A stretch of DNA of 64,000 nucleotides, taken from Paucihalobacter ruber (GTDB taxonomy: Bacteria; Bacteroidota; Bacteroidia; Flavobacteriales; Flavobacteriaceae). Shown here one piece after another: positions 10,174 to 44,089 of the stretch. Location of the stretch: assembly GCF_006494535.1 (NCBI RefSeq), contig NZ_VHIQ01000001.1, positions 622,736 to 686,735 of the forward strand. Direction: 5' to 3'. Made by a program: the position numbers and the translations under genes. How positions within the stretch are numbered: the first letter of the stretch is position 1; each line of letters opens with the position of its first letter. Under the pieces are notes generated by a model. That model ran no database searches and had not been told where the DNA came from. It saw only the letters and a program-made list of their open reading frames with translations.

Positions 10174-10202
10174 AATTTATACTGATTAAATCTTTAACTA
10201 AT

Positions 10203-24100: not shown

Positions 24101-24447
24101 AAGTTGAAAGTGAGGATAAAGCGAGAGCTTTATTTTTAGAAGTTTCTAAAAAATATCAGGAACAACTGTTATATTTCAGTTCATTGCCTATTGATGTTCA
24201 AAAAAACAACATTGAAGAAATTTTCTCAAACATCGAGCGCTACCGAAGTTTGGTAGATGTGCTGGTTGTTTATAAAGACACAGATTTTGCTCTTGAGGAA
24301 TCAAAAAAATTCAACAATCATTTGAAATTATTCGACCATTTTATGGGCCCGGACGAAGAACCCGAAGATGAAACTCCCATTACAGATGAAGGCGAGGCAT
24401 TTTTAGATTCTTTAATCAAAAGTATTAATGCCCAAAATCAAGAATAA
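21118..24447 (+). CDS. DUF2723 membrane glycosyltransferase-like protein
   Basis: Large 1109-residue inner-membrane protein. The N-terminal ~330 residues hold about nine hydrophobic helices in a GT-C-type layout, with the conserved acidic loop EPTVSFWDAGEYI (about 28-40) that in this fold contacts the lipid-linked sugar. More membrane segments occur at about 545-660, then a long soluble C-terminal region with helical repeats. The family includes eukaryotic TMEM260, reported as an O-mannosyltransferase (from memory), so protein O-glycosylation is a reasonable guess for the bacterial member. It overlaps the start of the deacetylase gene by one base, suggesting translational coupling. Confidence 0.85.
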   Translation: MTSLKFNKINTILGWVVFSIALIVYTLTIEPTVSFWDAGEYILTSSKLQVGHPPGAPFFQMLGAFFSIFALEPSQIGFLLNMMSALSSAFTILFMFWSITLLLKKLVNQDHNDLDGKAIAILGSGLVGSLAFTFTDTFWFNAVETEVYAMATLIMSVMFYLGLRWEQDMDTARGNKWLILIAFVVGLSFGVHFMGLLTIPAIGLIYYFKNYKTVTVQGFILANVISVAVLLFVFKLMFPNILRFFSALEIFFVNTIGLPFNSGSIIAGLILVAFFYFGLNYTRKKELPHYNTILLCLMFVIIGSSSWLMLPIRANANVVINENNPESARELLAYYNLEQYPETHLFYGPQFTEIYSGADKNKPFVDDKPKYEKDDAAGKYVIVNDYKNAKQNYNSEHAVVLPRMWSAEHAQNYMMFTGYVDFRIKPEYRSEPELVSLVTDFRSRVRAGEIDYDDYNQFLRTYGQSYLDVDTPSFASNIAYMIQYQLGYMYWRYFMWNFTGRQNDVQGKLDDFNGNWISGINFIDEWHLGMSQENLPSDVKNNKGRNTYYFLPFLLGLLGMFFLLQYDKKRFWVMLVFFLFTGIAIQVYTNVRPFEPRERDYSVVGSFYVFAIWIGFGVYALYDLLQSKLKTKLLAPAVTTVCLIVPLVLAVNNWDDHDRSKRRTAEAMAVKYLESCGPNAILFTIGDNDTFPLWYTQEIEDIRTDVRVVNTSLFQTDWYIDQMKRKAYESDPIPSQLTHDQYKYGTRDYIMRREITQDTLDIKDFIEFVSSDNPRTKLKYVLQQSGEDFTGYPRQMLNSNYFPTRHVKVPVNKENVLKSGLVKPEDADKIEDYLYLKIDESALYKNRLLMLDIVANNNWEREICFSGGSFGNDDYIWLKDYLQLDGMVYKLVPIKTPVNRANPYDMGRVNTDSMYQKVMSWDWGNSGSDDIYHDPETRKNGITYRGNLARLIEQLINEEKYDKAEAIADLAMEKMPVRHFEYYTLLEPYISAYYEVESEDKARALFLEVSKKYQEQLLYFSSLPIDVQKNNIEEIFSNIERYRSLVDVLVVYKDTDFALEESKKFNNHLKLFDHFMGPDEEPEDETPITDEGEAFLDSLIKSINAQNQE

Positions 24448-25500: not shown

Positions 25501-26730
25501 TTATAGGGTTGAATTACCCTTTTTCAATTCAATAACAGTAATTTCTGGCCAAATTCCAACCCTACCGGGATATGCCAAATAGCCAAATCCTCTGTTTACA
25601 TTAATATATTGATTCTTTTCTTTATAAATACCTGCCCAATATTTATAGCGCCAGCTCACCGGACTCCATTTAATCCAGCCCGGAATTTCGATACCAAATT
25701 GCATCCCATGGGTATGCCCGCTTAAGGTTAAATGCACATGCATGTCATCGTTTATGATTACTTCTTCCCAATGGCTTGGGTCGTGACTCATTAAAATCTT
25801 AAAATCATTTTTATCTAAGCTTTCACTAGCTTTCTTAAAATCTCCAGATTTTTTAAAACCACCTTTCCCCCAATTTTCGACGCCAATTATGGCCAAACGC
25901 TGTCCATCCCTTTCTAAATAAGTGCTTTCATTCAACAGCAATTGAAAGCCCATTTCTTTCTGAATTTGCTTTAAGGTTTCTAAATTTTGATTTTTTTCTT
26001 CGGCAGAATTCCAATCTACGTAATCGCCATAGTCATGATTTCCTAATACAGAATAAATGCCATCCTTAGCTTGAAGATTAGAAAACATGTCTTTCCATGG
26101 CAACATTTCGTCTGCCTTATTATTGACCAAATCTCCTGTAAACAAAATGCAATCAGATTGTTGTCCGTTCACTAAATCAATAGCGTATTTAATTTTATCT
26201 GGATTGTCAAAACTCCCCGCATGTATATCGCTTAATTGTGTAAGTTGGTAACCATCGAAAGCCTCAGGTAAATCCTCAAAATGAAGCGTATATTTTAAAA
26301 CTCTAAAGTTGTATTTACCGCGATACATTCCGTAAAGCAATGAAAACATTGGTATGGCTGCAATGCCAAGTGCAATCTGGCTCACAAACTTACGTCTTGA
26401 AGGAATGGTTAAATCCTCCTTTGAAGCAATAAATTTATCGTTAATTCCAATGATGGCTCTTAAAACGTCTTCGCCTAATAACAGCGGAATCACAACCATT
26501 TTAAAGGTCATAAAGGTGATTAAAAATCCGAGTGCAAAACTCTTGGTTTGGGTAAGCACCCTACTATCGCTGCCAGCTGTAAATTGATACACAAAATTGC
26601 TGAAAACCAACACCGAGACCGCAATAAAAATGATATGAGCCCACCCAAACTTTGTAGCCGTCTTTACAGCTTGAAAGGCATAAAAACTAAAAAACGCATA
26701 AATTAAAAAGAAAATTATCCAGCGAACCAT
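25501..26730 (-). CDS. Membrane-anchored metallophosphoesterase
   Basis: 409-residue calcineurin-like phosphoesterase with four N-terminal membrane helices (to about residue 145) and a soluble catalytic domain. Metal-binding motifs are complete: SDIHAGS (near 192), GDLVNN (near 220), GNHDYGD (near 250) and GHTHGMQ (near 345). Relatives hydrolyse cell-envelope substrates such as UDP-diacylglucosamine or undecaprenyl intermediates, but this subgroup (YkuE/YaeI-like, with TM anchor) has no settled substrate. Single gene; a TAACTTTG -7 box lies just upstream. Confidence 0.88.
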   Translation of the reverse strand: MVRWIIFFLIYAFFSFYAFQAVKTATKFGWAHIIFIAVSVLVFSNFVYQFTAGSDSRVLTQTKSFALGFLITFMTFKMVVIPLLLGEDVLRAIIGINDKFIASKEDLTIPSRRKFVSQIALGIAAIPMFSLLYGMYRGKYNFRVLKYTLHFEDLPEAFDGYQLTQLSDIHAGSFDNPDKIKYAIDLVNGQQSDCILFTGDLVNNKADEMLPWKDMFSNLQAKDGIYSVLGNHDYGDYVDWNSAEEKNQNLETLKQIQKEMGFQLLLNESTYLERDGQRLAIIGVENWGKGGFKKSGDFKKASESLDKNDFKILMSHDPSHWEEVIINDDMHVHLTLSGHTHGMQFGIEIPGWIKWSPVSWRYKYWAGIYKEKNQYINVNRGFGYLAYPGRVGIWPEITVIELKKGNSTL

Positions 26731-26772: not shown

Positions 26773-29250
26773 TTATCTTATGAAAGTGTTAAACGTTTTA
26801 AATTGAATGGCGGCTTCTTCGGCACTGGTTTTAAAGTAAACGGTTTTTACTTCGCCGGACAGTAAATCAAAATAATTATCGCTAAAATGACCTTTTTGAG
26901 GACTAAATAGAAATACATTTTTTTGAAGAACTTCGGAAGTGACTTTAATTAAAAAACCTTCACTTACTTTTTTTAAAGACAGATTTACAGTTCCTTGCGG
27001 TAAATCAAGATCTTTAGGTTTTACTAGATAAAACAAGGAGGAAGACTCGTTAAAACTAGCTTTTAGAACTGCTTGATATTTCTTTTTATTAAAAATTTCT
27101 ATGGGTAAAGTTGCATAAATGTTACTCCCGGAAGCTTCAACTTTAATTTCAACGCGTTCTTGCCAAATTATATGTCCTTTAAAATCTATTAATTGAAGTT
27201 CTAACAAGCCATCTTGTGGTGATAATTCATCGTTTACTACATAAACATCGACATTGTTGTTGTTTTGTTCAAACGAAATCAAAACATTCTCAAAACTCCG
27301 TTTGGCTTGATAATGCAATGCCTTCCAGTCACCAAAAAAATCGATGCTCGACCAACTTACAGCGGGCCAGCAGTCGTTGAGTTGCCAATATAAACTGCCC
27401 ATATTATAAGGTCTCGAACGCCGATGTGCCTCAATACCTTTGCCGATGCCATAGGCTTGCAACAACTGACTCATATACACGTAATCTTCGTCATTATCAG
27501 GCACCGGAAAATCATGTTCCATATATTCTTTAATTCGCTCAAAACCAATTTGATGTTTTTGATGGGTTTTAAACGCAGGTGAATTAATATCGATACTGTC
27601 GTTGTCGTTTATAAATTTAATAGTTTCGTAGCTTGGAAACGCCTGAAAGCCAAATTCACTCATAAAACGAGGCACATTCTTTTCCAAACTTTCAAACGGA
27701 TATCCATCGTGCCAAACCCACCAATCGTGTGCATTGCCTTCGGTTATGTAGCGAATATCACCCCGACCAAATTTTGGAGAAGTTTCCCAATAAGGAACTT
27801 CCGATAATTTATTCACGGTATTTGGTAAAATGGTGTCGAAAATTTTTAAATAATTGTTCCAAATCTCTTCTTTTTCAGCTTCACTTCTGCCTTCCTGCCA
27901 ACCCCAGCGGTGCCAGCCTTCGCTTACTTCATTGTTACCGCACCACAAAGCAATAGAAGTAAAATTTCGCAATCGTTTTAGATTATCGATGGCTTCCTGC
28001 TGCACATTTTCAAGGAAAGTATCATCTCCGGGATACATCGCACAGGCAAACATAAAATCCTGCCAAACTAGCAAGCCCTTTTCATCACATTTTTCATAAA
28101 ACACCTCATTTTCATAAATGCCGCCACCCCAAACCCGAAGCATATTCATATTGGCGGTCACCACATCATTAAGTAATTGCTCATAATGCTGTTCTGTTAC
28201 TTCACTTTGAAAACTGTTTTGCGGAATGTAATTGGCACCTTTCATAAAAACAGGAACACCGTTTACTTTAAAATAAAAGGACTCGCCCACCTCATCCTTT
28301 TCTGCGATATGCTCAATGGTTCGCAGACCTTTTTTAAGTTTTTTTACATCCAATATTTTGTTATTTCGTCTTAAGCGCACTTCCATATCATACAAATGTG
28401 GCTCACCCAGGTTGTGTGGCCACCAACGTTGAGGGTTTTCAATAGTAAATGGGATATTCATCACATGTTCTCCAGCTCTAAATACTTGTTTTATTGTCAC
28501 CTTTAATTCTCCCTCAACAAGAATATCGAGGGTTAATTCTTTTTCTTCATTGAGTGTGATAGCGATTTCGGCCTCAAGTTCTGCAATATTATCGCTTAGT
28601 TTAATTTGTTTAAAATAAGTGTCTTCTATTCTAGCTATATTCCAGCTTTCTAAAAAAACCTTGCGCCAAATTCCTGAGGTTATAAATGTTGGCCCCCAAT
28701 CCCAACCGTATTGAAATTGCGCTTTACGCGAAAAAATACGAAGACCTTCAGGAAGTTCATAATCTAATTTGTCCTTTTCGGCTTCTTCAGAAATACTGGT
28801 GGGCTCAAAAACAATTCTTATGTGATTTTCTAATTTAAGAAATGGCTTTACATCTGCCTTCCAAAACCTAAAAGCGTTATTGGTACTTAATACTAAACTG
28901 TCATTTATATAAACTGAAGCGCAGGTATCTAAGCCATCAAAGCTTAACATATGATTGGATTTTTGAAGTGTTTTTTCATCAACAAAAAACCTTGTTTGAT
29001 ATTCCCATCCTGTTTCAGAAATCCATTGCAATTGCAACTCATTATCTTTTACAAAAGGATGCGGAATAAGTTTATTTCCATACAAATCAGTATGGACCGA
29101 ACCGGGAACGGTTGCCGGATACCAAATAGAATCTGTGGTTTTTTTGAATTGCCAACCTTCATGAATTAATTGCTTGGATATCAAATGTTTTGATTGTCTT
29201 TCACAACTCAAAATCAAGAGTAGTAATAATACTAATAGCCTATATTTCAA
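26773..29250 (-). CDS. Beta-mannosidase lipoprotein (GH2)
   Basis: 825-residue exo-beta-mannosidase. It would remove the Man-beta-1,4-GlcNAc residue of an N-glycan core. A lipoprotein signal (LLLLILSC, Cys at about 16) places it on a membrane surface, probably periplasmic. Domain order is the usual one: sugar-binding jelly roll (~30-200), Ig-like domain, TIM barrel (~310-620) with acid/base Glu in WCGNNEVSEGW (near 440) and nucleophile Glu in MSEFGFQAFPS (near 530), then C-terminal beta domains. Both catalytic Glu residues are present. Last gene of the minus operon, sharing ATGA with the cutC stop. Confidence 0.93.
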   Translation of the reverse strand: MKYRLLVLLLLLILSCERQSKHLISKQLIHEGWQFKKTTDSIWYPATVPGSVHTDLYGNKLIPHPFVKDNELQLQWISETGWEYQTRFFVDEKTLQKSNHMLSFDGLDTCASVYINDSLVLSTNNAFRFWKADVKPFLKLENHIRIVFEPTSISEEAEKDKLDYELPEGLRIFSRKAQFQYGWDWGPTFITSGIWRKVFLESWNIARIEDTYFKQIKLSDNIAELEAEIAITLNEEKELTLDILVEGELKVTIKQVFRAGEHVMNIPFTIENPQRWWPHNLGEPHLYDMEVRLRRNNKILDVKKLKKGLRTIEHIAEKDEVGESFYFKVNGVPVFMKGANYIPQNSFQSEVTEQHYEQLLNDVVTANMNMLRVWGGGIYENEVFYEKCDEKGLLVWQDFMFACAMYPGDDTFLENVQQEAIDNLKRLRNFTSIALWCGNNEVSEGWHRWGWQEGRSEAEKEEIWNNYLKIFDTILPNTVNKLSEVPYWETSPKFGRGDIRYITEGNAHDWWVWHDGYPFESLEKNVPRFMSEFGFQAFPSYETIKFINDNDSIDINSPAFKTHQKHQIGFERIKEYMEHDFPVPDNDEDYVYMSQLLQAYGIGKGIEAHRRSRPYNMGSLYWQLNDCWPAVSWSSIDFFGDWKALHYQAKRSFENVLISFEQNNNNVDVYVVNDELSPQDGLLELQLIDFKGHIIWQERVEIKVEASGSNIYATLPIEIFNKKKYQAVLKASFNESSSLFYLVKPKDLDLPQGTVNLSLKKVSEGFLIKVTSEVLQKNVFLFSPQKGHFSDNYFDLLSGEVKTVYFKTSAEEAAIQFKTFNTFIR

Positions 29251-29969
29251 TCTAAATTCTTTAAAATTCTACAAATAATTTCGGTGTTAGATTCAAACAC
29301 TTTATTTTCCTGAAAAAACTTTGTGCTATTCATTGTAACTATTGGGACGGCTGTTTCTTGAACCAAAGTTGTGGCAGAAGCGTGGATTTCAGTAAATCCC
29401 TTATCTTTAAACAACTTCACATTATTTTCGTTGATGCCGCCACCCGGCAAAATCTGAATCCGATTATTTGCTTGTTGATGCAGTTGGGTTAACAACTCAA
29501 TACCTTTTTCTGCAGTAGATGACTGCCCGGATGTCAAAATCCGATGAACACCAATATCAATTAACGTTTCTATCGCTTCTGCTGGGTTTGGCACCCAGTC
29601 AAATGCACGATGAAACGTAAATGGTAAAGGCTTGCTTAGTTCAACCAATTCTTTAGTTCTAATAACATCAATAGAATTATCAACATTCAAAACCCCGGAA
29701 ACAATGCCTGTACAACCCATCTTTTTGCAATTAAGAATGTCTGCTTTTATAATTTCAAATTCGTCTTCGGAATAAGTGAAATTACCACTCCGAGGGCGAA
29801 TCAAGACAAAAACCGGAATGGCTACTTTCTTTAAAACCTCTTGAATCATTCCAAATGATGGTGTTATACCACCAACGGCTAACTCACTGCATAACTCAAC
29901 GCGATGTGCTCCGGCTTTTTCAGCATTAATAGCAGATTGGATATTGGCAGCACAAATTTCTAAAGTCAT
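29247..29969 (-). CDS. cutC: CutC family TIM-barrel protein
   Basis: 240-residue cytoplasmic TIM-barrel protein of the CutC family. It shows the typical LEICAANIQSAINAEKAGAHRVELCSEL-type start (broken here: LEICAAN, then GAHRVELCSEL near 20), PRSGNFTYSEDE, TFHRAFDW and LPGGGINENN. The named role is copper homeostasis, but that assignment is disputed and no copper gene is nearby; its place between hexosaminidase and mannosidase genes suggests a carbohydrate role. The frame is open 41 residues upstream into the GH20 stop region; ATG at 29969 is chosen. Overlaps the GH2 gene by four bases. Confidence 0.9.
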   Translation of the reverse strand: MTLEICAANIQSAINAEKAGAHRVELCSELAVGGITPSFGMIQEVLKKVAIPVFVLIRPRSGNFTYSEDEFEIIKADILNCKKMGCTGIVSGVLNVDNSIDVIRTKELVELSKPLPFTFHRAFDWVPNPAEAIETLIDIGVHRILTSGQSSTAEKGIELLTQLHQQANNRIQILPGGGINENNVKLFKDKGFTEIHASATTLVQETAVPIVTMNSTKFFQENKVFESNTEIICRILKNLD

Positions 29970-29982
29970 AATAATCTTCAAT

Positions 29983-32283
29983 TTATTCAACGACAATCTC
30001 ATCAACAAACAACCAGGCCTTATGGCCGGCACCTTGCGCACCATCGGGAATGACACCGTAATTTTTGATGTTAATATGAATGTATCTCGCATCTAAATTT
30101 TCAACACGAACTTCTAAATTTTTTAAATTTTTCCCACCATCATCCAAAGTAGCATTATTCTTTGTCAAATTATTTCTTTCACTATCTAAAACTGCAACTT
30201 CAATAATTGACGGTGCGTAAATCCATTGCCCTATGGCGTCATAAAATCTGGTTGAAATCTTGTTTATTTGAGTAGTTGTGCCTAAATCAATCAGGATTTC
30301 CAAATCATCGCCCCAAAACCCCAGCCACTCCTTATCACCATAACGTTTGTCACTACCTTGTATGCCATTAATCAAACCGGCCGCGCCACTGCCGCTGTAA
30401 ACCTTGCTTGGCTCTACACTCAGTTCAATTTTTTTGCCCACGGCCTTATGTATTTCAATTGTTTCCTCAAAAATGGAACTTATTTGCTTTCCGTTTTCAT
30501 CAAAAACTGCTGCCTTTATTAGAAGGTCTTCAGAGACAGAGAGTGCCTTTTCATACTTGTAAGATTTTAAATTGGGCTCGCTGCCGTCTGTGGTATAAAA
30601 AATGGGGTTGGAGTTACTTTCCGATTTTAATTGAAAGAAAATACCATTTTCATTGGATTGAATTGTTCCTTTTATTTCATACAAATGATTGGCAACATTT
30701 ACGTTAAGCATATCCATCCGCTTTTGGAAATGCTCCAACCGCTTCACAAAATCTTCGTAATTTCTATGTTCTTCTGAAGTCCACAAGACTTCACTTAACG
30801 CTATTGCCCGTGGAAACGCCATATATTCCACTTGCTTCTCATCCCTCATATATTCTGTCCAGAGGTTGCCTTGCGCGCCTAATACAAATTGGGATTCTTC
30901 GGCGGTTAAACCTTCAGGAATCGGATTAAAATGATAGACTTTTTCTAAAGGTAAAAATCCGCCAATGGCCAGTGGTTCGGTGTCATTTTCGCTTTGGTAA
31001 TAATCAAAATAACAATGCGAAGTAGGTGTCATAATTACCTTGTGCCCTTGTTTGGCAGCAGCCACAGCACCTTCAACACCACGCCAGGACATCACGGTGG
31101 CATTGGGTGCCAGACCACCTTCCAAAATTTCGTCCCAACCGATGATTTGTCGACCTTTGCTATTGAGATATTTTTCCATTCGCGTGATGAAATAGCTTTG
31201 AAGTTCGTGCTCGTCTTTTAGCCCTTCTTTTTTAATGAGTGCCTGACAACTTTCGCAATTTTCCCATCGGGTTTTGGGTGCTTCGTCACCACCGATATGA
31301 ATGTACTCACTAGGGAAAAGCTCCAGAACTTCATCCAGAATGTCTTCCAAAAAAGCGAATGTTTCTTCCTTAGGGCAATAAATATCCTCAAAAACACCCC
31401 AAAATTTTGCCACTCCGGGGTTTTCACCTGTACATCCCAAATTCGGATAAGCGGCAATGGCTGCCTGTGAATGTCCGGGCATTTCAATTTCCGGAATTAC
31501 GGTAATATGTCTTGCCGAAGCATATGCAACGATTTCTTTGACCTCTTCTTGGGTGTAATAACCACCATAACGTTTTCCGTCAAATTGGTGTGGCATATCG
31601 TTGTAATGACCAATGAGCGTCTCGTCGCGCCAGGCGGCAACCTCTTGTAATTTTGGATATTTTTTAATCTCGATGCGCCAGCCTTGGTCTTCGGTTAAGT
31701 GCCAGTGAAAAGTATTCATCTTAAGCAGTGCCAGCATATCGATGTATTTCTTGATAAACGCTACCGGAAAGAAATGGCGACCCACATCCAGATGCATACC
31801 GCGATAAACAAATTGTGGTGCGTCTTCTATCTCTTGGGCTTGCAGGTGAATTTGATTGTCTTCAAAAGTTTGACTCTCAAATGCCGGTGGTAAAAGTTGT
31901 CTTAAAGTTTGAACGGCATAAAAAGCGCCTATGTCGGTTTGGGCTGAAATGATGATATCATTTTCTGAGATTTTTAAATGATATCCTTCTTTTTCAATTG
32001 TACTATCAAATTGAAAGCTGATTTTAGATTCGGATTTATCTTTATTAAGACGAATACTACTGCCGTTTTCTATAAAGTTTTTGAGAAATGACGAAGAAAG
32101 TTTAAAATATTCATCCGCAATGAGTTGAGTGTTGGAAGAAATTGTAAAATAACCCAATTGAATAATTTGTGCTTGTGGATTGGGAATAATAACTGAATCG
32201 AGTGGTTGATCAGCGTTTTTAGTACAACCAAATACGCAAAATACAATTACACCTAATAATTTTAATACATTACATCTTATCAT
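29983..32283 (-). CDS. Beta-N-acetylhexosaminidase lipoprotein (GH20)
   Basis: 766-residue exo-hexosaminidase, which would release terminal GlcNAc, including that of chitobiose cores. Signal peptide with lipobox VFGC (near residue 20). N-terminal GH20b-type domain (~25-150), GH20 barrel (~155-500) with the catalytic Asp-Glu pair in HIGGDEAPKT (near 325). After it come a chitobiase-C-like domain (YTTDGSEPN, ~540) and a C-terminal discoidin-like domain (~610-766). The same two tail modules occur in the GH92 protein next door. ATG at 32283 is preferred over the longer frame because it begins the signal peptide. 13 bp from cutC. Confidence 0.93.
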   Translation of the reverse strand: MIRCNVLKLLGVIVFCVFGCTKNADQPLDSVIIPNPQAQIIQLGYFTISSNTQLIADEYFKLSSSFLKNFIENGSSIRLNKDKSESKISFQFDSTIEKEGYHLKISENDIIISAQTDIGAFYAVQTLRQLLPPAFESQTFEDNQIHLQAQEIEDAPQFVYRGMHLDVGRHFFPVAFIKKYIDMLALLKMNTFHWHLTEDQGWRIEIKKYPKLQEVAAWRDETLIGHYNDMPHQFDGKRYGGYYTQEEVKEIVAYASARHITVIPEIEMPGHSQAAIAAYPNLGCTGENPGVAKFWGVFEDIYCPKEETFAFLEDILDEVLELFPSEYIHIGGDEAPKTRWENCESCQALIKKEGLKDEHELQSYFITRMEKYLNSKGRQIIGWDEILEGGLAPNATVMSWRGVEGAVAAAKQGHKVIMTPTSHCYFDYYQSENDTEPLAIGGFLPLEKVYHFNPIPEGLTAEESQFVLGAQGNLWTEYMRDEKQVEYMAFPRAIALSEVLWTSEEHRNYEDFVKRLEHFQKRMDMLNVNVANHLYEIKGTIQSNENGIFFQLKSESNSNPIFYTTDGSEPNLKSYKYEKALSVSEDLLIKAAVFDENGKQISSIFEETIEIHKAVGKKIELSVEPSKVYSGSGAAGLINGIQGSDKRYGDKEWLGFWGDDLEILIDLGTTTQINKISTRFYDAIGQWIYAPSIIEVAVLDSERNNLTKNNATLDDGGKNLKNLEVRVENLDARYIHINIKNYGVIPDGAQGAGHKAWLFVDEIVVE

Positions 32284-32302
32284 ATATTGAATTTGTATTT
32301 CA

Positions 32303-32929
32303 TTATAACATCCAAAAGTCATCGGTTAAATAAAATACCGTATCTACAAAATAAAGAACGTCATTCTTTGTAAGTACATTTTCATCGTGTAAATCCTCTA
32401 AGATAATTCCAAGCTCATCGTTATAATAGTCGTTATTCCTCGTGTTTATAAAACCGTTTGCAGCCATAAATTCTTTTACTCTATTTAAGTCTGTTTGCTG
32501 TGTTATTTGCACGTAAGCTTGTTTTAAAACCGCATACAATACGTCTTTTTGATTAGTAAAACCAAGTAATTCATAAGCCGTGTCAGGAAAAAAATAATTA
32601 TGTAATAAAAGGTTATGAAAATAATCCAGCCATGAAAGATAATAAATAGAATCGTTTAATTTTAAAACGTATTGCGAATTCTTTAAGTACACGCGCTGCT
32701 CGGCACCTTCGCTAATATATTGTGAATAATCTACATCTTGAAACCAATATTTTTGAGATTCAATGTAGTGTATTAAGCGCTCTGTTTCTTGTTTTTTGAA
32801 GTGCTTAGTGTTCTTAATTTCTTTGCTTGGCTTCGTGCCATCTGCAAGGTAACCGGTGATTGCTTGGATAGTAGCTCCAAACCTAACTTGGCTCTTTCCT
32901 GAAAGGACATTGTATAATTCATTTTTCAT
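32303..32929 (-). CDS. Polyvalent-protein-type kinase-like protein
   Basis: 208-residue protein that looks like a stand-alone member of the protein-kinase-like domain found in polyvalent proteins (recognised from memory). Kinase landmarks: glycine-loop-like SEGAEQRVYL, a candidate VAIK Lys in YVLKLND (near 88), a catalytic-loop-like LEDLHDENVL (near 183) and a metal-site-like YFVDTVFYL near the C-terminus. Whether it phosphorylates a protein, sugar or small molecule is unknown. ATG at 32929 is chosen; the upstream start at 32944 is TTG. It is first in the minus operon, 19 bp before GH20. A TATATTTG -7 box lies at 32942-32949. Confidence 0.72.
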   Translation of the reverse strand: MKNELYNVLSGKSQVRFGATIQAITGYLADGTKPSKEIKNTKHFKKQETERLIHYIESQKYWFQDVDYSQYISEGAEQRVYLKNSQYVLKLNDSIYYLSWLDYFHNLLLHNYFFPDTAYELLGFTNQKDVLYAVLKQAYVQITQQTDLNRVKEFMAANGFINTRNNDYYNDELGIILEDLHDENVLTKNDVLYFVDTVFYLTDDFWML

Positions 32930-32941
32930 AAATGATTTAAA

Positions 32942-32949
32942 CAAATATA
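32942..32949 (-). promoter_or_regulatory. -7 box of the kinase-GH20-cutC-GH2 operon
   Basis: Minus-strand TATATTTG, perfect TAnnTTTG, 12 bp before the ATG, so the leader would be only a few bases. No clear -33 element. Confidence 0.42.
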
Positions 32950-33068
32950 CAACAAAGAATGGAACTGTTAAAGACAGAATCTTTATGAAAAAGGCCTAAA
33001 CAAATTTCTCAAACCTTCAATCGCATTTTTAGTATATTAGTTGCCATAAATGTACCAATCAAAATCGA

Positions 33069-36020
33069 ATGCAAGCAAAATTCATCCTTCTTTTTATTCT
33101 TTCTTTGTTTTTTATTAATTGTTCGCAAAACAATCAAATAGCGCCCGCAACCAAAGACGCGCTATTAATATCTTACGTTAACCCAATGATTGGCACCGAC
33201 GGTACCGGACATACATTTCCGGGAGCAACACTGCCTTTTGGCATGATGCAACTAAGTCCTGATACCCGTGTAGATGGCAGCTGGGAAGGATGCAGCGGTT
33301 ACCATTACAGCGATGACTATATTTATGGATTCTCTCATACACACCTCAGCGGCACAGGTGTTTCAGATTATGGCGATGTGCTATTAATGCCAAGTAACGT
33401 AATCGAGTTTAATAATGGTTTTGATGGCAAAAAAGGCTACCGAAAACCCTTTTCTCATGAAAACGAAACCGCTTCAACAGGTTACTATTCGGTGGTTTTA
33501 GACTCCATTAATGTGAATGTAGAACTCACTGTTTCCTACCGAAGCGGTATTCATAAATACCAATTTCCTGATGCTGAAAATCAATTCCTAATTCTGGACT
33601 TAGAGCACAGAGACATGCTGTTGGATCACAAAATTCAACAAATTGATGATGTCTCGGTTAGCGGATACAGGTTTTCGAAGGCTTGGGCAGAAGATCAACG
33701 ACTGTTTTATTACATCACTTTTTCCCATCCAATTGAAAACATTACTTATCAAATTGAAAACGCGCAATCTCAAAAAAACTACAAATTTGAAAGTTCTAAA
33801 GCGGCCATTAAATTTAACAATCCCAACAATGAACCCGTTTTGATGAAAATTGGTATTAGCGCTGTTGATGAAAATGGTGCTAAAAATAATTTATTGAGTG
33901 AAATTGGCAATAAAACATTTGAACAAGTTAAAACCGAAGCTGAAGCCATTTGGGAGCAACAACTTGAAAAAATCATTATTGAAACACCAAACGACGACTA
34001 CAAAACTGTATTTTACACCGCCATGTACCACGCCATGATCGCGCCAAACATCTATCAGGATGTTGACGGCCGATACCGTGGAATGGATTTAGAAATTCAT
34101 CAAACCAACGATTTTGATTACTACACTGTTTTCTCTCTTTGGGATACTTACCGCGCAGCACATCCGCTGTACACTATTATTGAACAAGAACGCACCAAAG
34201 ATTTTATTCAAACCTTTTTAGCAAAATACGACGAAGGTGGCATCATGCCCATTTGGGATTTGGCGGGCAATTATACCGGATGTATGATTGGTTACCACGC
34301 CGTGCCCGTAATTGCGGATGCTTACTTAAAAGGCATAGATGGATTTGATTCCGACAAAGCACTTGAAGCGATGCAGCACAGCGCTATGCAAGATCACCTC
34401 GGACTTGAATCTTACAAAAAATTTGGGTTTATTCCATTAGAGGAAGAAAGTGAATCGGTTTCTAAAACTTTGGAATATGCTTACGATGATTGGACCATTG
34501 CCATGATGGCCAAAGATATGGGCAGAAATGATATTTATGAATCATTTTTAAAGCGCGCCCAAAATTATAAAAACGTGTTTGACCCCGAAACACAATTTAT
34601 GTGTGCCCGATTTAGAAATACCTGGTTTTCGCCATTTGACCCATACGAAGTAAATTCAAACTACACCGAAGCCAACGCCTGGCAGTACAGTTTATATACG
34701 CCTCAGGATTTTTCCGGGCTGATGAAATTAATGGGCGGAAAGGAAAAACTTGAAAAACACTTAGACGAGCTTTTTACAGCAGAGGCTGAAACTTCGGGAA
34801 GGCATCAGGTTGATATCACGGGACTTATTGGTCAATACGCACACGGAAACGAGCCGAGTCACCATATGGCATACATTTACAACTTTGTTAATAAGCCGCA
34901 CAAAACTCAGGAGCGCGTGAGACAAATCCTTACTGAACAATATCAAAATCATCCTGACGGTATTTCGGGAAATGAAGACTGCGGCCAAATGAGCGCCTGG
35001 TATATTTTTAGTTCATTAGGCTTTTATCCGGTAACACCGGGCAGCAACCAGTATATTATTGGCGCACCATTATTTGATAAAGCCACCATTAATCTTGAAA
35101 ACGGAAAAACCTTTACCATTTTAGCTGAAAACAACAGTCCTGAAAACCGTTATATAGCTTCGGTAAAACTTAATGGTAAATCGCACCCCAAGTCTTATAT
35201 CAATCACGATGACATTGTTAATGGAGGAACGCTCATTTTCACAATGACCAACCAGCCCACCAACTGGGGTACTAGTGATGAAGCCATCCCTGTGAGTGAA
35301 ATTTTAGAACACCTCATCATACCTTCACCTTTTATTAAAAGTGGCGATGTTGCTTTTAAAGATGACACCGAAGTTGTACTCGAATGTGCTGAAAAAGATG
35401 CTACCATTTTTTTTAGAATAAACGATAAAGATTTTGAACCATATCATGCTCCAATCAACATTTCCGAAGATACCCAACTCACGGTTTACAGCGAAAAAAA
35501 TGGTGTGAAAAGTGCCGAAGTTGGTACCAAATTTTACAAAATGGATTCTGATTTAAGTATTGAATTAGGTACTGCCTATGCCAACCAATACAATGGTGGT
35601 GGACCAAACGCCTTGATCGACGGTTTGCGCGGCACTAAAGATTTTAGAACCGGTGCCTGGCAAGGCTATCAGGATACTGATTTAATAGCCACACTCAATC
35701 GAGGCGGTAAAAAGCCCTTAAACTCGGTAAGCATTAACTTTTTGGTAGACCAACGCAGCTGGATTTTTTATCCTACTGAAGTAAGTTTATACATTTCAGA
35801 AAACGGAAAAGATTTCACCTTAAAAGACACTAAAACCTTTAATGCAGAAGTTCCAATCTCTCAAACCGAAATTGCAAACATTAAATTTAATTTAGACAGT
35901 CAACCGGTGCAGTATTTAAAAATTATAGCTAAAAATTTTGGAGACTTACCAGATTGGCATTTGGGTGCACCTTTTAATGGAAAAGCTTGGTTATTTGCAG
36001 ACGAAATTGTTTTAAAATAA
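33069..36020 (+). CDS. GH92 alpha-mannosidase lipoprotein
   Basis: 983-residue exo-alpha-mannosidase of family GH92, likely trimming high-mannose N-glycans. Lipoprotein signal with lipobox FINC near residue 17. The family start YVNPMIGTDGTGHTFPG (near 43-58) and the calcium/catalytic regions LWDTYRAAHPLY (near 365) and NEDCGQMSAWY (near 640) are present. After the GH92 domain (~735) follow a chitobiase-C-like domain (FFRINDKDFEPYHAP) and a discoidin-like C-terminal domain (~840-983), the same tail as the GH20 protein. First gene of the plus-strand operon with the permease and glycosylasparaginase, divergent from the hexosaminidase operon. Confidence 0.94.
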   Translation: MQAKFILLFILSLFFINCSQNNQIAPATKDALLISYVNPMIGTDGTGHTFPGATLPFGMMQLSPDTRVDGSWEGCSGYHYSDDYIYGFSHTHLSGTGVSDYGDVLLMPSNVIEFNNGFDGKKGYRKPFSHENETASTGYYSVVLDSINVNVELTVSYRSGIHKYQFPDAENQFLILDLEHRDMLLDHKIQQIDDVSVSGYRFSKAWAEDQRLFYYITFSHPIENITYQIENAQSQKNYKFESSKAAIKFNNPNNEPVLMKIGISAVDENGAKNNLLSEIGNKTFEQVKTEAEAIWEQQLEKIIIETPNDDYKTVFYTAMYHAMIAPNIYQDVDGRYRGMDLEIHQTNDFDYYTVFSLWDTYRAAHPLYTIIEQERTKDFIQTFLAKYDEGGIMPIWDLAGNYTGCMIGYHAVPVIADAYLKGIDGFDSDKALEAMQHSAMQDHLGLESYKKFGFIPLEEESESVSKTLEYAYDDWTIAMMAKDMGRNDIYESFLKRAQNYKNVFDPETQFMCARFRNTWFSPFDPYEVNSNYTEANAWQYSLYTPQDFSGLMKLMGGKEKLEKHLDELFTAEAETSGRHQVDITGLIGQYAHGNEPSHHMAYIYNFVNKPHKTQERVRQILTEQYQNHPDGISGNEDCGQMSAWYIFSSLGFYPVTPGSNQYIIGAPLFDKATINLENGKTFTILAENNSPENRYIASVKLNGKSHPKSYINHDDIVNGGTLIFTMTNQPTNWGTSDEAIPVSEILEHLIIPSPFIKSGDVAFKDDTEVVLECAEKDATIFFRINDKDFEPYHAPINISEDTQLTVYSEKNGVKSAEVGTKFYKMDSDLSIELGTAYANQYNGGGPNALIDGLRGTKDFRTGAWQGYQDTDLIATLNRGGKKPLNSVSINFLVDQRSWIFYPTEVSLYISENGKDFTLKDTKTFNAEVPISQTEIANIKFNLDSQPVQYLKIIAKNFGDLPDWHLGAPFNGKAWLFADEIVLK

Positions 36021-36025
36021 AACCG

Positions 36026-37336
36026 ATGAGCCAGAAACCTAACTACCAATCTTCATTTATTTTATTAACCGTTTTATTTTTTCTTTGGGGATTTATTACG
36101 GTGTTGGTTGATTCTTTAATACCGCGTTTGCGCGAACTTTTTACCCTAACTTATTTTCAGGCCGGTTTGGTTCAATTTGCCTTTTTTGGCGCTTATTTTT
36201 TACTGTCAATTCCTGCAGGTTATTTATTGTCAAAAATTGGATACAAGCGAGGAATTGTTTTTGGTCTTTTAACTATGGCAATTGGATGTTTATTATTTTA
36301 CCCTGCGGCATCTTTGAGGATATTTGGCGTTTTTATGCTGGCATATTTTACACTTGCTGCCGGAATGACCATTTTACAAGTAGCAGCCAATCCGTTTGTT
36401 TCTGTATTAGGCAGCGAGGATGGTGCATCCAGCAGGCTCAACCTTTCACAGGCTTTTAATAGTTTAGGAACCGCCATTGCACCGGCTATTGGCGCTTTAT
36501 TTATTTTAAGCGATGCCATAAAAACCGAAGCAGAAATTGCAGCGCTCAATAATATAGATAGAGAACAATATCTGTTAAACGAAGCTTCGGCAGTACAAAT
36601 GCCATTTATAGCATTGGCCGTTTTTATTGCATTTATAGCATTGGTTTTTGTATTTGCAAAATTGCCTTCCATTATCAATGAAAAATCAACCGGTACTTAT
36701 TGGCAGGCACTTTCAAATAAAAAATTAGTTCTAGGAGTTCTTGGCATTTTCTTCTATGTAGGCGCCGAAGTGGCTATTGGCAGTTACTTAGTCAATTATT
36801 TTTTAGACTTGAATTTGGTTGACCTTATCAAAAATAATAGTCTAATGACTTCTATTTCAGAGAAATTACTCAACGCAGAACTCTCAAGTAAAGACGGAAA
36901 AGCCATTGTAGGCGTATTTGTCACCTTTTACTGGAGTGGTGCTATGATTGGAAGATTTATAGGCTCGTACCTCACCAAAATTTTTAATCCAGGAAAGATA
37001 TTGGGCATTTTTGCCAGCTTAGCCGTTACCATGATTGTCATTTCAATAAATAGCGTAGGTTTACTGAGTATGTGGAGCATTTTGGCAGTTGGCTTGTTCA
37101 ACTCCATTATGTTTCCAACTATTTTTACCTTGTCACTGGATGGTTTGGGTGAACTAAAACCAAAGGCTTCAGGGTTACTTTGTACTGCCATCGTTGGTGG
37201 TGCTGTTATTCCGCCACTCTTTGGAAAATTAACCGATTTATTTGGATTTCAAATGGCACTTATTTTAGTAGTGGCTTGCTATTGCTACATCATCTATTTT
37301 GGATACCTTAACTTAAAGAAAACACAACAGACATGA
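36026..37336 (+). CDS. Sugar MFS permease (FucP/GluP-like)
   Basis: 436-residue inner-membrane proton-sugar symporter of the fucose/glucose-galactose permease subfamily, with about 12 hydrophobic helices. The start FFLWGFITVLVDSLIP and the loop motifs between helices 2 and 3 fit the family. In this context the likely substrates are mannose or GlcNAc released by the neighbouring glycosidases (inference). The frame is open upstream into the GH92 gene; ATG at 36026, six bases after the GH92 stop, is chosen. Overlaps the next gene by ATGA. Confidence 0.9.
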   Translation: MSQKPNYQSSFILLTVLFFLWGFITVLVDSLIPRLRELFTLTYFQAGLVQFAFFGAYFLLSIPAGYLLSKIGYKRGIVFGLLTMAIGCLLFYPAASLRIFGVFMLAYFTLAAGMTILQVAANPFVSVLGSEDGASSRLNLSQAFNSLGTAIAPAIGALFILSDAIKTEAEIAALNNIDREQYLLNEASAVQMPFIALAVFIAFIALVFVFAKLPSIINEKSTGTYWQALSNKKLVLGVLGIFFYVGAEVAIGSYLVNYFLDLNLVDLIKNNSLMTSISEKLLNAELSSKDGKAIVGVFVTFYWSGAMIGRFIGSYLTKIFNPGKILGIFASLAVTMIVISINSVGLLSMWSILAVGLFNSIMFPTIFTLSLDGLGELKPKASGLLCTAIVGGAVIPPLFGKLTDLFGFQMALILVVACYCYIIYFGYLNLKKTQQT

Positions 37337-38340
37337 AACGCCGAAAATTCTTAAAAAACGCCTCATTATCTACTGCAGCAATAGCGATAGCACCCACCAT
37401 TTTAAGTTGCAAAGACAATGTGAAAGAATCCGATACTCAAGCTATCGCAACTATTGATACAGCTAATAACATTCCTCTGGTAATTGCTACATGGGATGTA
37501 AAAGAAGCTACGGCGAAAGCATGGGAAGTTATCAATAACGGTGGCAACGCCTTAGATGCCGTTGAACAAGGCTGTATGGTTGAAGAAGCCAACGATAAAG
37601 GTCAGAGTGTTGGTAAAGGCGGTTTGCCCGACAGAGATGGTAACGTTACACTAGATGCCTGCATTATGGATAAAAACGGTAATTGCGGTGCGGTAGTTTA
37701 TTTACAGAATATTACTCACGCTGTGTCGGTAGCACGAAAGGTCATGGAAGAAACACCACATGTTATGTTAGCTGGTGATGGTGCCAGACAATTCGCCATT
37801 TCTCAAGGTTTTCAACCCGAAGATTTACTCACCGATGCTTCCAAAAAAGCCTGGGAAAACTGGAAACTCACCTCAGAATACAAACCCATCATTAATATTG
37901 AAAATCACGATACCATTGGCATGTTGGCTATTGATAAAAATGGCGATATTTCAGGCGCTTGCACCACCAGTGGTCTGGCTTATAAAATGGCAGGACGCGT
38001 AGGTGATAGTCCGATTATTGGCTCTGGTTTGTTTATTGATAATGAAATTGGCGGTTGCGTGGCTACCGGATTAGGCGAAGAAGTTGTAAAAACAGTTGGC
38101 AGTTTTTTAGTGGTTGAGCTCATGCGACAAGGAAAATCTCCACAAGAAGCCTGCGAAGAAGCCATCAGCAGAATTGTTAACAAACCCAATAGCGACTATA
38201 AAAACTTTCAAGTGGGTTACATTGCCGTTAATAAAAAAGGTGAAACAGGCAGTTATGCCATTCACGAGTATTTTAGCATGACTAAGTACCAAAATGAGGT
38301 GAATGAAAACATTCAGGCTGATTTTATCATTAAAGGGTAA
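37333..38340 (+). CDS. N4-(beta-N-acetylglucosaminyl)-L-asparaginase (glycosylasparaginase)
   Basis: Ntn hydrolase that cleaves the GlcNAc-Asn bond of a trimmed glycoasparagine, giving aspartate and GlcNAc-amine. The 335-residue precursor has RRKFLKNASLSTAAIAIA followed by LSC, a Tat-like and possibly lipidated signal. NNGGNALDAVEQG is the alpha-subunit signature. The self-cleavage site is ENHD|TIGMLAID near residue 193-196, with Thr as nucleophile. Downstream GRVGDSPIIGSG and TGLGEEVVK complete the substrate pocket. It ends the alpha-mannosidase operon and provides the final step of N-glycan breakdown. Confidence 0.93.
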   Translation: MKRRKFLKNASLSTAAIAIAPTILSCKDNVKESDTQAIATIDTANNIPLVIATWDVKEATAKAWEVINNGGNALDAVEQGCMVEEANDKGQSVGKGGLPDRDGNVTLDACIMDKNGNCGAVVYLQNITHAVSVARKVMEETPHVMLAGDGARQFAISQGFQPEDLLTDASKKAWENWKLTSEYKPIINIENHDTIGMLAIDKNGDISGACTTSGLAYKMAGRVGDSPIIGSGLFIDNEIGGCVATGLGEEVVKTVGSFLVVELMRQGKSPQEACEEAISRIVNKPNSDYKNFQVGYIAVNKKGETGSYAIHEYFSMTKYQNEVNENIQADFIIKG

Positions 38341-40485: not shown

Positions 40486-43119
40486 CTAAACCAAACTTTC
40501 GCCACGCATTTCTTTTTCTTTTAAAGACTTCACCAAATCCAGCGCATCAGGAATCACATCGCTGCACAACACTATAAGCGATCCGTTTTTGGCATTCTTT
40601 ACAGCGTGAATAATAGCTTCCTTTTCTGAAGGGATGATGGTAGTTTGTTTACCCGGCATTTTGGATTTGATGCCATCGTCTAACATTTTGATAAGTTCGG
40701 CTTCAGATCTGCCTCTCAAGTTTTTGTCCTGCCTAATAATAATTTCATCAAACATTTCAGCAGCTATGGCACCAATGGCATTGGTATCTTCTTCACGTCT
40801 ATCGCCTACGCCTGCTATAATGCCTACTTTGTGCGTACACTCAAAGGTGTCGGTAAAATTCTTTAAGGCATACATACCCGCCGCGTTATGGGCGTAATCT
40901 AAAAGAATACTAAAGTTTTTAAACTCAAATAAATTAAGTCTTCCAGGGGTTTGAGAAGCCGACGGGATAAAAGTGTCTAATCCGGCTTTGATATCTTCTA
41001 TGGAAATACCTTGCACATGCGCCGCTAAAATAGCCGGCAGCACATTTTGAATCATAAAAGTGGCTTTACCTCCAAAGGTTAGTGGAATTTGCTCTGCTTT
41101 CATCACACGCATTTTCCACTCGCCACGACAAATAGTAACATAGCCGTTTTCATAAATGGCGGTAATACCATTAAGCCGCTGCATAGCCTTGATTCTTGGG
41201 TTATTTTCATCCATAGAAAACAGTGCGACATTGCAATTGACGGTTCGGCGCATTTCATAAACCAAATCGTCGTCGGCATTTAAGATAGCGTAGCCGCTGG
41301 GTAGTACGGTTTCAGGAATCACACCTTTTACCTTGGCCAATTGTTCGATGGTATGGATGCCTTTTAAGCCCAGGTGGTCTGCCGCCACATTGGTTACAAT
41401 ACCAACATCGCATTTTTTAAATCCAAGTCCGGCTCTTAACAATCCACCACGAGCACATTCCAACACGGCAAAATTTACAGTTGGGTCTTTCAGCACAAAT
41501 TCGGTACTTGCCGGTCCGGTGCAATCGCCTTTCATTAATAATCGGTTTTGAATGTACACACCGTCGCTAGTGGTGTAACCAACTCTGTAGCCATTCATTT
41601 TTACGATGTGCGCTATAAGTCTGGTGGTAGTAGTTTTTCCATTAGTACCGGTAATGGCGATAATGGGAATACGTCCGGTATTTCCTTTTGGGAACAATTT
41701 ATCAATTACCGGAGCCGCTACATTTCTTGGTAATCCGGAGGTTGGTGCTAAGTGCATTCTAAATCCGGGTCCTGCATTGACCTCAAGAACAGCACCCCCT
41801 GTTTCAGATAATGGTTTGGTGATATCGGTGGTCATCACATCAATACCACAAATGTCGAGATCGATAATTTTTGAAATCCGTTCGGCCATTGAGATATTGG
41901 CAGGATGCAAAATATCGGTTACATCTTCCGCTGTGCCTCCTGTACTTAAGTTGGCGGTATCTTTTAAAATAAGTCTTTCGCCTTTTGGTAAAATGCTATC
42001 AAGAGTGTATCCGGCATCTTTTATGATGGTTTTAGTGAGTTCATTCACCGTAATTTGCGTGAGTACATTTTCGTGACCATAACCGCGTCTTGGGTCTTTA
42101 TTAACCTCGTTAATAAGTTGTTGCACCGATAAAATACCATTTCCAATAACATGTGCGGGAGTTCGTTTGGCGGCCGCCACCAGTTTATTGTTGATGACTA
42201 ATAACCTGTAATCTTCTCCGGTCACAAATTTTTCAACGATGATGGTTCCACTTCGCGAACTCTCTTTGGCATTTCTGAAAGCCACCAAAGCATCGTCGTA
42301 ATTTTGAATATTAACTGTGATACCGCGACCGTGATTGCCATCTACGGGTTTTATCACCAACGGAAAACCTACATGCTTACAAGTTTCAGCCAAGCTGCTT
42401 TCTCTTCTGATGATATCGCCGCGCGGTACTTCAACTTCGGCTTGTTCCAATAAATATTTTGTGTCTTCCTTATTACAGGCCAGTTCAACCCCAATGCTAC
42501 TGGTTTCGCTGGTAACGGTGGCTTGAATGCGTTTTTGATTGGCACCGTAACCCAGCTGACACAGCGAATATTTATTTAACCTTATCCATGGAATACCGCG
42601 CGCTTCGGCTTCTTCAATAATAGAACCGGTACTTGGACCCAAACGATCGGCTTCACGCAATTCTCTCATGGTTTGAATATCTTCTGATAAATCGTAAGGC
42701 TCGTCGTTGATTAAAGCCTCACAAATTCTAACAGCTACTTTAGCGGCATATCTGCCAACAGACTCTTCCATATAGGCAAACACAACGTTATAAACCCCTT
42801 TTTCGCCATATCCACGCGTACGACCAAAGCCAACATCCATTCCTGCAAGGGTTTGTATTTCTAAAGCGATGTGCTCAATAATATGGCCCATCCAGGTTCC
42901 TTCATCAACCCGTTGAAAAAATCCGCCGGGTGTTCCAACAGAACATCGATGCTCATACATTGAAGGAAACATGGCTGCCAAACGTTCTTTAAATCCTGGA
43001 ATGGTATTAGAAGGACGCTCTTCCATCTCTTCCAAATCCAACACCATAACAATAAGTTTATGTCTTCTAATAGACCAATAATTGGGGCCGCGCATGGCGT
43101 TGATTTCTCTTATTCTCAT
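40486..43119 (-). CDS. cphA: Cyanophycin synthetase
   Basis: Makes cyanophycin, a poly-aspartate backbone with arginine side chains, using ATP. The 877-residue protein has the full CphA1 layout: N-terminal domain (~1-160, with GGFFQRVDEGTWMGHIIEH), ATP-grasp domain (~210-470, with PVDGNHGRGITV and VEVNAGPGFRMH) and a Mur-ligase-like domain with P-loop GTNGKTTTTR near 488 and LDYAHN near 735. Length equals that of cyanobacterial enzymes. Faces the cyanophycinase gene across a shared 95-bp promoter region. Confidence 0.93.
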   Translation of the reverse strand: MRIREINAMRGPNYWSIRRHKLIVMVLDLEEMEERPSNTIPGFKERLAAMFPSMYEHRCSVGTPGGFFQRVDEGTWMGHIIEHIALEIQTLAGMDVGFGRTRGYGEKGVYNVVFAYMEESVGRYAAKVAVRICEALINDEPYDLSEDIQTMRELREADRLGPSTGSIIEEAEARGIPWIRLNKYSLCQLGYGANQKRIQATVTSETSSIGVELACNKEDTKYLLEQAEVEVPRGDIIRRESSLAETCKHVGFPLVIKPVDGNHGRGITVNIQNYDDALVAFRNAKESSRSGTIIVEKFVTGEDYRLLVINNKLVAAAKRTPAHVIGNGILSVQQLINEVNKDPRRGYGHENVLTQITVNELTKTIIKDAGYTLDSILPKGERLILKDTANLSTGGTAEDVTDILHPANISMAERISKIIDLDICGIDVMTTDITKPLSETGGAVLEVNAGPGFRMHLAPTSGLPRNVAAPVIDKLFPKGNTGRIPIIAITGTNGKTTTTRLIAHIVKMNGYRVGYTTSDGVYIQNRLLMKGDCTGPASTEFVLKDPTVNFAVLECARGGLLRAGLGFKKCDVGIVTNVAADHLGLKGIHTIEQLAKVKGVIPETVLPSGYAILNADDDLVYEMRRTVNCNVALFSMDENNPRIKAMQRLNGITAIYENGYVTICRGEWKMRVMKAEQIPLTFGGKATFMIQNVLPAILAAHVQGISIEDIKAGLDTFIPSASQTPGRLNLFEFKNFSILLDYAHNAAGMYALKNFTDTFECTHKVGIIAGVGDRREEDTNAIGAIAAEMFDEIIIRQDKNLRGRSEAELIKMLDDGIKSKMPGKQTTIIPSEKEAIIHAVKNAKNGSLIVLCSDVIPDALDLVKSLKEKEMRGESLV

Positions 43120-43181
43120 AAGTTTTGGAATTGAAAGGTTGATTGGAGTTAAATATAAAATAAATTTTAATTAATTAAGCT

Positions 43182-43189
43182 TAATTTTG
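43182..43189 (+). promoter_or_regulatory. -7 box of the cyanophycinase gene
   Basis: TAATTTTG, perfect TAnnTTTG, 25 bp before the cphB ATG. A 7-of-8 minus-strand match (TATATTTA) near 43151-43158 could serve cphA. The region is otherwise AT-rich with TTAATTAA palindromes. Confidence 0.42.
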
Positions 43190-43214
43190 CGGCATAAAAT
43201 ATTGACAATTAAAA

Positions 43215-44084: not shown

Positions 44085-44089
44085 AACAG

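Follow-up and report, generated by a model that had tools for sequence, protein, structure and literature searches.

The window analysed here, a stretch of 64,000 nucleotides from the genome of Paucihalobacter ruber, carries at 26773-38340 two compact divergent operons: GH20-CutC-GH2 on the minus strand and, on the plus strand, GH92, a permease of the major facilitator superfamily (MFS) and a glycosylasparaginase (AGA). The locus is likely to be an exo-acting system for the N-glycan core, in which CutC serves as a cytoplasmic amino-sugar enzyme and not as a copper carrier. A role for CutC in amino-sugar catabolism, judged from its genomic contexts, can be held with good confidence, and a specific reaction, the conversion of 1-amino-N-acetylglucosamine (1-amino-GlcNAc) to N-acetylglucosamine (GlcNAc) and ammonia, is put forward tentatively. 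CutC, a TIM barrel of solved structure conserved from bacteria to humans, has been labelled a copper protein since 1995, yet no molecular activity has been attached to it; its recurring link with AGA, and with PNGase F in some exceptions, suggests a concrete substrate class that can be tested.

The co-occurrence of CutC and AGA was measured in two overlapping samples, one of 198 Bacteroidota genomes that are at least 90% complete and one of 296 genomes taken at class level. In the first, CutC is found in 61 genomes and AGA in 99; all 61 CutC-positive genomes have AGA, while 38 have AGA only and 99 have neither gene (Fisher 9e-25). The class genomes comprise 130 with both genes, 8 with CutC only, 16 with AGA only and 142 with neither (odds ratio 144, p 2e-54), as against an odds ratio of 2.2 (p 0.0014) for a control, the isoaspartyl-peptidase paralogue versus CutC in the same genomes. 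Matches were taken from the best 150 or so per profile, within which all AGA-type matches fall. A CutC below the cut-off (19.6 bits, G245) and second CutC fragments in G037 and G320 were not counted, and G037, whose CutC is broken by stop codons, was still scored as positive. The AGA profile (A1) was built from 16 CutC-adjacent AGAs and that of the window, and may favour such AGAs; it still detects others, since glycosylasparaginases score at least 254 bits with it and isoaspartyl peptidases at most 211 bits, and since it finds the 38 AGA-only genomes.

The two genes are also close neighbours. AGA lies within 300 bp of CutC for 29 of the 63 CutC genes in the 198 genomes and within 3 kb for 31, where chance would give about 0.15% per gene at 3 kb; among the class genomes, the 300 bp limit takes in 61 of 141 CutC genes. 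A family-stratified test, which takes in only genomes with a stated family (143 genomes, 19 families) and leaves out unlisted genomes with neither gene, gave 83 genomes with both genes against 61.1 expected (p 3e-20), with full concordance in 13 of the 16 informative families. At family level, and also inside single genera (g119 and g110, for example), CutC and AGA tend to be gained and lost as a pair. An artefact of genome lifestyle was also considered as the source of the link; the comparison with the control paralogue and the test within families both make it less likely.

PNGase F (PF09112) provides a second line of evidence. Among class genomes lacking AGA, a match of at least 55 bits occurs in 3 of the 8 with CutC (G277, G402 and G431) and in 0 of the 142 without it (p 1e-4), and all 10 class genomes with PNGase F at this level are CutC-positive; the 55-bit cut was set after viewing the match list, and the G431 match is partial (55 bits). 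In Marinilabiliaceae bacterium ANBcel2 (L167), whose genome gives no AGA match, CutC is clustered with PNGase F, an alpha-fucosidase and two ROK genes, together with GH20 and GH92. PNGase F and the cytoplasmic PNGase release glycosylamines. According to the available text of a Lactobacillus casei study, AGA and PNGase F both cut the amide between GlcNAc and asparagine (GlcNAc-Asn), and glycosylasparaginase releases 1-amino-GlcNAc, a glycosylamine (PMC6960285). Because both enzymes cleave this amide, a glycosylamine is their common product, and CutC may be the partner of amide-cleaving enzymes such as these.

Gene order was compared in 80 named CutC loci. AGA is found within 300 bp in 30 of them and within 8 kb in 43, and CutC adjoins it in several different arrangements. 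Eight loci show GH92, GH20, CutC and AGA together, namely those of Aquimarina (L099), a Bacteroidia metagenome-assembled genome (MAG; L105), Mangrovimonas (L107), Winogradskyella (L114 and L118), Tenacibaculum (L115) and Polaribacter (L119 and L141). Since Maribacter and its relatives keep a metallophosphoesterase, CutC and a divergent AGA together with no glycosidases in view, CutC-AGA looks like the core to which glycosidases would have been added later. Of the 37 named loci with no AGA in view, 26 were followed into their genomes; 25 of these genomes were searched, and 18 of the 25 have an AGA-type match elsewhere. In many of the CutC loci without a nearby AGA, the scanned neighbours are housekeeping genes (tRNA synthetases, RNase Y, Lon, ATP synthase and others).

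Other genes recur in these surroundings. A gene for a NagB-like plus PIG-L protein is found near CutC in seven loci (L067, L089, L096, L152, L155, L163 and L211), frequently in the company of AGA and GH20. A different context is seen in Flavobacterium glycines, F. sufflavum and F. daejeonense (L096, L098 and L100), where CutC is flanked by a SusD gene on one side and an MFS plus BNR-repeat gene on the other, with AGA elsewhere in the genome. M81 metallopeptidase (MlrC-type) genes also recur near CutC (L212 at 9074-10660, L234, L235 and L236), and the M81 enzyme is perhaps another amide-cleaving partner of CutC.

Beyond the surveyed genomes, CutC often accompanies NagA/NagB, ROK/BadF kinases or GH20. 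A plasmid survey, in which 26 of 67 CutC records were opened (mostly chosen for annotation and as non-Enterobacterales; 3 of the 26 unannotated), found amino-sugar or glycan genes near CutC in 16 of the 23 annotated neighbourhoods, a count that has no background rate behind it and includes several genera repeatedly (Hymenobacter 3; Paracoccus, Pseudoalteromonas, Cetobacterium and Enterococcus 2 each). For example, three Hymenobacter plasmids carry AGA-CutC with GH92 near, and a Kozakia plasmid carries NagA, a GluP-type permease, ROK, CutC, GH20 and NagB. Two Paracoccus plasmids have a tagatose-bisphosphate aldolase subunit, ROK, a phosphosugar (SIS) isomerase, CutC, Gfo/Idh and a sugar ABC transporter; a Sinorhizobium plasmid has an amidase, ROK and CutC with NagA and SIS, and an Alkalihalophilus plasmid an aminopeptidase, CutC, an alpha-fucosidase and ROK. 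In Chitinibacter's class, CutC exceeds the cut-off in 5 of 184 genomes, too few for statistics, and one of the five (L186) has AGA beside it. Outside Bacteroidota, genes for Gfo/Idh/MocA oxidoreductases are repeatedly found next to CutC or close by (L157, L172, L222, L223, L238, L239 and L242).

The modelled structure of the window CutC (predicted local distance difference test 96.8) matches human CUTC (3iwp) with a Z score of 36.7 at 42% identity and Shigella CutC (1twd) with 36.1 at 35% identity. The nearest non-CutC folds are MJ1099, also named MfnB (Z 21.6 to 20.4), and hexulose-phosphate synthase (20.1), followed at Z 17-18.5 by DERA-type aldolases, PdxJ, IGPS, HisA/PriA and RPE; these are mostly sugar-phosphate TIM barrels, although Foldseek and VIA-align report fold similarity only. 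Seven residues (E4, R23, E25, R58, D101, H120 and D124) are the same in all 17 aligned plasmid CutCs, which come from several phyla; the alignment covers 17 of the 23 annotated plasmid CutCs. C27 is kept in 16 of the 17. In the model, E4, R23 and E25 lie inside strands, while R58 and H120 lie just past strand ends, so that these residues look like a putative active site. With the NCBIfam equivalog NF008603, 'copper homeostasis protein CutC', the window protein scores 228 bits, below the curated cut-off of 311.

In the proposed pathway, GH92 would trim alpha-mannose, GH2 the core beta-mannose and GH20 the outer GlcNAc. The lipoprotein glycosidases and the exported AGA would act outside the cytoplasm, where AGA would convert GlcNAc-Asn to aspartate and 1-amino-GlcNAc, and the GluP/FucP-type permease would import the released sugar; both the localisation of the enzymes and the transport of the sugar are predicted from sequence. 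Cytoplasmic CutC would deaminate 1-amino-GlcNAc, or its phosphate, at the anomeric carbon; ammonia would be released, and the GlcNAc would go to a GlcNAc kinase. In L. casei, 1-amino-GlcNAc is described in the available text as not metabolizable and as undergoing non-enzymatic, spontaneous decay at acid pH (PMC6960285). The proposal thus addresses a gap in glycan catabolism, and because of this decay, a CutC enzyme would be most useful at neutral to alkaline pH. A wider extension is rather unlikely as it stands: CutC, from bacteria to human CUTC, would be no copper protein but the missing glycosylamine hydrolase, converting 1-amino-GlcNAc and related 1-amino sugars, the products of amide cleavage by AGA or PNGase, to free sugar and ammonia, and animal CUTC would clear the glycosylamines of the cytoplasmic PNGase. 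Should the re-assignment of CutC to amino sugars be right, genomes called copper-resistant because they carry cutC bear a wrong label.

Several observations weigh against this account. CutC is dispensable for AGA, as 38 of the 198 Bacteroidota genomes and 16 of the 296 class genomes carry AGA alone. The tie to PNGase F fades at weaker cut-offs yet stays: at 40 bits, 12 of 14 PNGase F-positive class genomes have CutC (3 of 8 against 2 of 142 among those lacking AGA), and at the Pfam cut-off the figures are 19 of 28 (p 0.03) and 4 of 8 against 9 of 142 (p 0.002). AGA and a strong PNGase F match are both missing from five of the 138 CutC-positive class genomes (G222, G262, G300, G407 and G417), and likewise from two Capnocytophaga (G464 and G465), G469, G471, Chitinibacter (G452) and a Chloroflexi MAG (G453). 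Among the five, CutC overlaps GH20 in G407, an M81 peptidase gene is a neighbour in G262 and a NagB-PIG-L gene lies nearby in G300; the neighbours in G222 and G417 are uninformative. On the plasmids, 7 of the 23 annotated neighbourhoods lack any gene of amino-sugar metabolism (Parabacteroides, two Cetobacterium, two Enterococcus, Entomospira and Klebsiella), and 4 of these 7 lie near metal or efflux transporters (MgtE twice, a calcium P-type ATPase and an RND efflux pair). In the Alphaproteobacterial stretches opened, where no AGA is annotated, CutC is found with NagA, kinases and Gfo/Idh, a setting in keeping with a wider role in amino-sugar metabolism. Finally, as AGA appears exported and CutC cytoplasmic, 1-amino-GlcNAc would need import.

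The main alternative is that CutC acts on a phosphorylated amino sugar, as an isomerase, epimerase, anomerase or aldolase on the 6-phosphate (6-P) of GlcNAc, N-acetylmannosamine (ManNAc-6-P), N-acetylgalactosamine (GalNAc-6-P) or N-acetylmuramic acid (MurNAc-6-P), and that its link with AGA reflects nothing beyond GlcNAc supply. This is a serious possibility, if a less than probable one. It draws weight from the sugar-phosphate barrels among the nearest folds, since these suggest a substrate that carries a phosphate, and the recurrence of NagB-PIG-L genes near CutC and the Alphaproteobacterial company of NagA, NagB, SIS isomerases, MurNAc-6-P etherase and ROK kinases, with no annotated AGA, are in line with it. 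Taken alone, however, it leaves both the tight CutC-AGA pairing in Bacteroidota and the substitution by PNGase F unexplained. It is improbable that the locus is an ordinary exo-acting N-glycan locus in which CutC is a passenger kept by synteny: the four hydrolases and the permease are indeed all ordinary members of their families, but CutC and AGA co-occur also when unlinked, are gained and lost together within families, and adjoin in more than one arrangement.

The copper label has to be weighed against evidence of several kinds. The E. coli cutC mutant phenotype is confounded, because the gene, according to the part of the source available, also encodes the start of the MicL RNA; the copper phenotype has reportedly been traced to MicL. 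C27 is invariant in 57 of 57 Bacteroidota CutCs. A two-Cys copper site was considered and set aside, as C6 is a cysteine in just 31 of these 57 (and in 16 of the 17 plasmid CutCs), although this counter-argument is weak and only partial. The available text of a 2024 review (PMC11083455) keeps CutC in copper homeostasis and reports copper phenotypes on knock-down in worm and human cells, both of which also speak against an amino-sugar enzyme, as well as weak Cu(I) binding; the same text calls CUTC an unlikely chaperone or trafficking protein and notes that its expression drops on copper overload. That CutC is a copper-homeostasis protein linked by chance to N-glycan loci, for instance as a copper defence during feeding on host or algal glycoprotein, is very improbable despite these phenotypes, the binding and the invariant C27, as a copper gene is not expected to track the gain and loss of AGA within genera.

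The features of the locus and its surroundings are collected below.

Features of the locus and of its neighbours in the window
Feature	Position	Strand	Evidence
TMEM260-like protein O-mannosyltransferase	21118-24447	+	PF11028, 247 bits
Metallophosphoesterase, conserved CutC neighbour in related genera	25501-26730	-	Synteny only; near CutC in 27 of 80 named loci
GH2 beta-mannosidase, lipoprotein-like N-terminus	26773-29250	-	Pfam domains; best solved relative 2je8 beta-mannosidase, 686 bits
CutC family protein, no signal peptide seen	29247-29969	-	PF03932, 238.6 bits (cut-off 23.3)
GH20 beta-hexosaminidase, lipoprotein-like	29983-32322	-	PF00728, 422 bits; best solved relative 6q63, 621 bits
Kinase-PolyVal gene in the divergent gap	32303-32944	-	PF18762, 220 bits
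GH92 alpha-mannosidase, C-terminal F5/8-like region, lipoprotein-like	33069-36020	+	PF07971, 622 bits; best solved relative 6f8z, 645 bits
GluP/FucP/NagP-type MFS sugar permease	36023-37336	+	TIGR01272, 267 bits (cut-off 202.55); solved relative FucP 3o7q
Glycosylasparaginase (AGA), Tat-like start, Asp193-Thr194 autoprocessing site	37333-38340	+	Closest to solved glycosylasparaginases
Cyanophycin island	40486-45019		Cyanophycin synthetase (TIGR02068, 1260 bits), peptidase S51 (cyanophycinase-type), isoaspartyl peptidase
Isoaspartyl peptidase of the island	44090-45019		

The sequence-only reading of this stretch had placed GH92, GH2, GH20, a sugar permease and an asparaginase side by side in two divergent operons. 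The Pfam scan and open reading frame (ORF) coordinates bear out all five genes and both operons, with scores far over the cut-offs for every named gene; 'side by side' has to be amended, however, since CutC, which that reading did not mention, parts GH20 from GH2, and the Kinase-PolyVal gene fills the divergent gap. Packing is tight, with 4-base overlaps between CutC and GH2 and between the permease and AGA, a spacer of 2 bases between GH92 and the permease and one of 13 bases between GH20 and CutC; the GH20 start is probably at 32283, as read from the sequence. The lipoprotein-like starts of the three glycosidases and the twin-arginine (Tat-like) start of AGA, also part of the earlier reading, are visible by eye, and none is seen in CutC. 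The solved relatives 2je8, 6f8z and 6q63 are Bacteroides proteins. In 8 relatives with the full gene order, searched by tblastn, the region of the Kinase-PolyVal gene is a gap of 30-150 bases in 7 and of 1.7 kb in L141; because most have only these few bases there, the gene is probably an insertion into a shared promoter region, outside the pathway. Promoter and terminator scans gave counts near chance.

The call of glycosylasparaginase held up. Judged from sequence comparison, the window asparaginase belongs with the true glycosylasparaginases, not with the isoaspartyl peptidases: it scores 371 bits to solved glycosylasparaginases versus 126 bits to the best isoaspartyl peptidase, D193 and T194 are invariant in 17 of 17 aligned AGAs, solved beta chains start at query residue 194, and the twin arginine is kept in all 17. 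A single pathway of AGA and the second asparaginase of the window was considered and rejected, as the latter, the isoaspartyl-peptidase paralogue used as the co-occurrence control, sits with the cyanophycin synthetase and the peptidase S51 gene in the cyanophycin island beside the N-glycan locus. In one relative (L104), an isoaspartyl peptidase, cyanophycin synthetase, AGA, CutC and a metallophosphoesterase stand in a row.

The locus is best read as degrading the N-glycan core down to GlcNAc-Asn by exo-cleavage, because AGA, the beta-mannosidase, GH92 and GH20 are predicted in one place, related genera repeat this arrangement and the search of the genome for GH18 gave no match; the earlier reading of N-glycan dismantling stands to this extent, without its 'high-mannose' qualifier. 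Its claim of every exo-activity was an over-reading, since a single GH92 need not act on every mannose linkage (alpha-1,2, -1,3 and -1,6), even with the second GH92 that lies 0.6 Mb off in the source genome beside a GH127 and a PhyH gene. That genome (3.54 Mb, 99.9% complete) gives 0 GH18 matches at E <= 0.001, which agrees with the supposed lack of an endo-GlcNAcase as far as GH18 goes, GH85 not having been searched for; it also gives no PNGase F (PF09112) match. The supposed lack of SusC/SusD agrees with the 30 window proteins scanned with Pfam (every locus gene included; the window has 59 ORFs of at least 100 amino acids), none of which belongs to these families, and the genome as a whole has six SusD-type PF07980 matches, all outside the window. 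Given no GH18 in the genome and no SusC/SusD among the scanned proteins, the locus appears to work on the N-glycan core by exo-cleavage and without SusCD. The TMEM260-like O-mannosyltransferase, about 2 kb from the mannosidase locus, bears on the idea of a locus acting on the cell's own glycoproteins.

A locus of this kind is already known. What appears to be new is the proposed tie of CutC to amide-cleaving N-glycan enzymes, a testable re-assignment of a conserved family; in the literature searched, no paper has both 'CutC' and 'glycosylasparaginase', and no earlier proposal of such a partnership was found among the papers listed. Human CUTC and Shigella CutC share the fold of the window protein, which sits in an N-glycan operon. 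The nix cluster of Xanthomonas (nixE-L) likewise has a beta-mannosidase, an alpha-mannosidase, a hexosaminidase, an asparaginase and cutC in one region, with cutC (XAC3091) and the asparaginase (XAC3092) under consecutive locus tags; unlike the present locus, it includes a TonB receptor, a fucosidase and a beta-galactosidase, and in the available text its cutC is labelled copper resistance, with no pathway role proposed there (PMC6718126, PMC5700972). The alf-2 genes of L. casei (AlfH, AlfC, AsnA2 and SugK) similarly join an MFS permease to a glycosylasparaginase that gives 1-amino-GlcNAc and aspartate, although AsnA2 is intracellular, in contrast to the exported-looking AGA of the window; the word 'copper' has 0 occurrences in the alf-2 paper (PMC6960285). 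In the available accounts of the high-mannose N-glycan polysaccharide utilization locus of Bacteroides thetaiotaomicron, GH92 alpha-mannosidases also act on N-glycans (PMC10154615, PMC11180146), and one operon combines a GH18 with three GH92s acting in sequence (PMC10154615). By comparison, the window locus has one GH92, with no GH18 in the genome and no SusCD seen in the window, and the Asn-linked GlcNAc would be cleaved by AGA.

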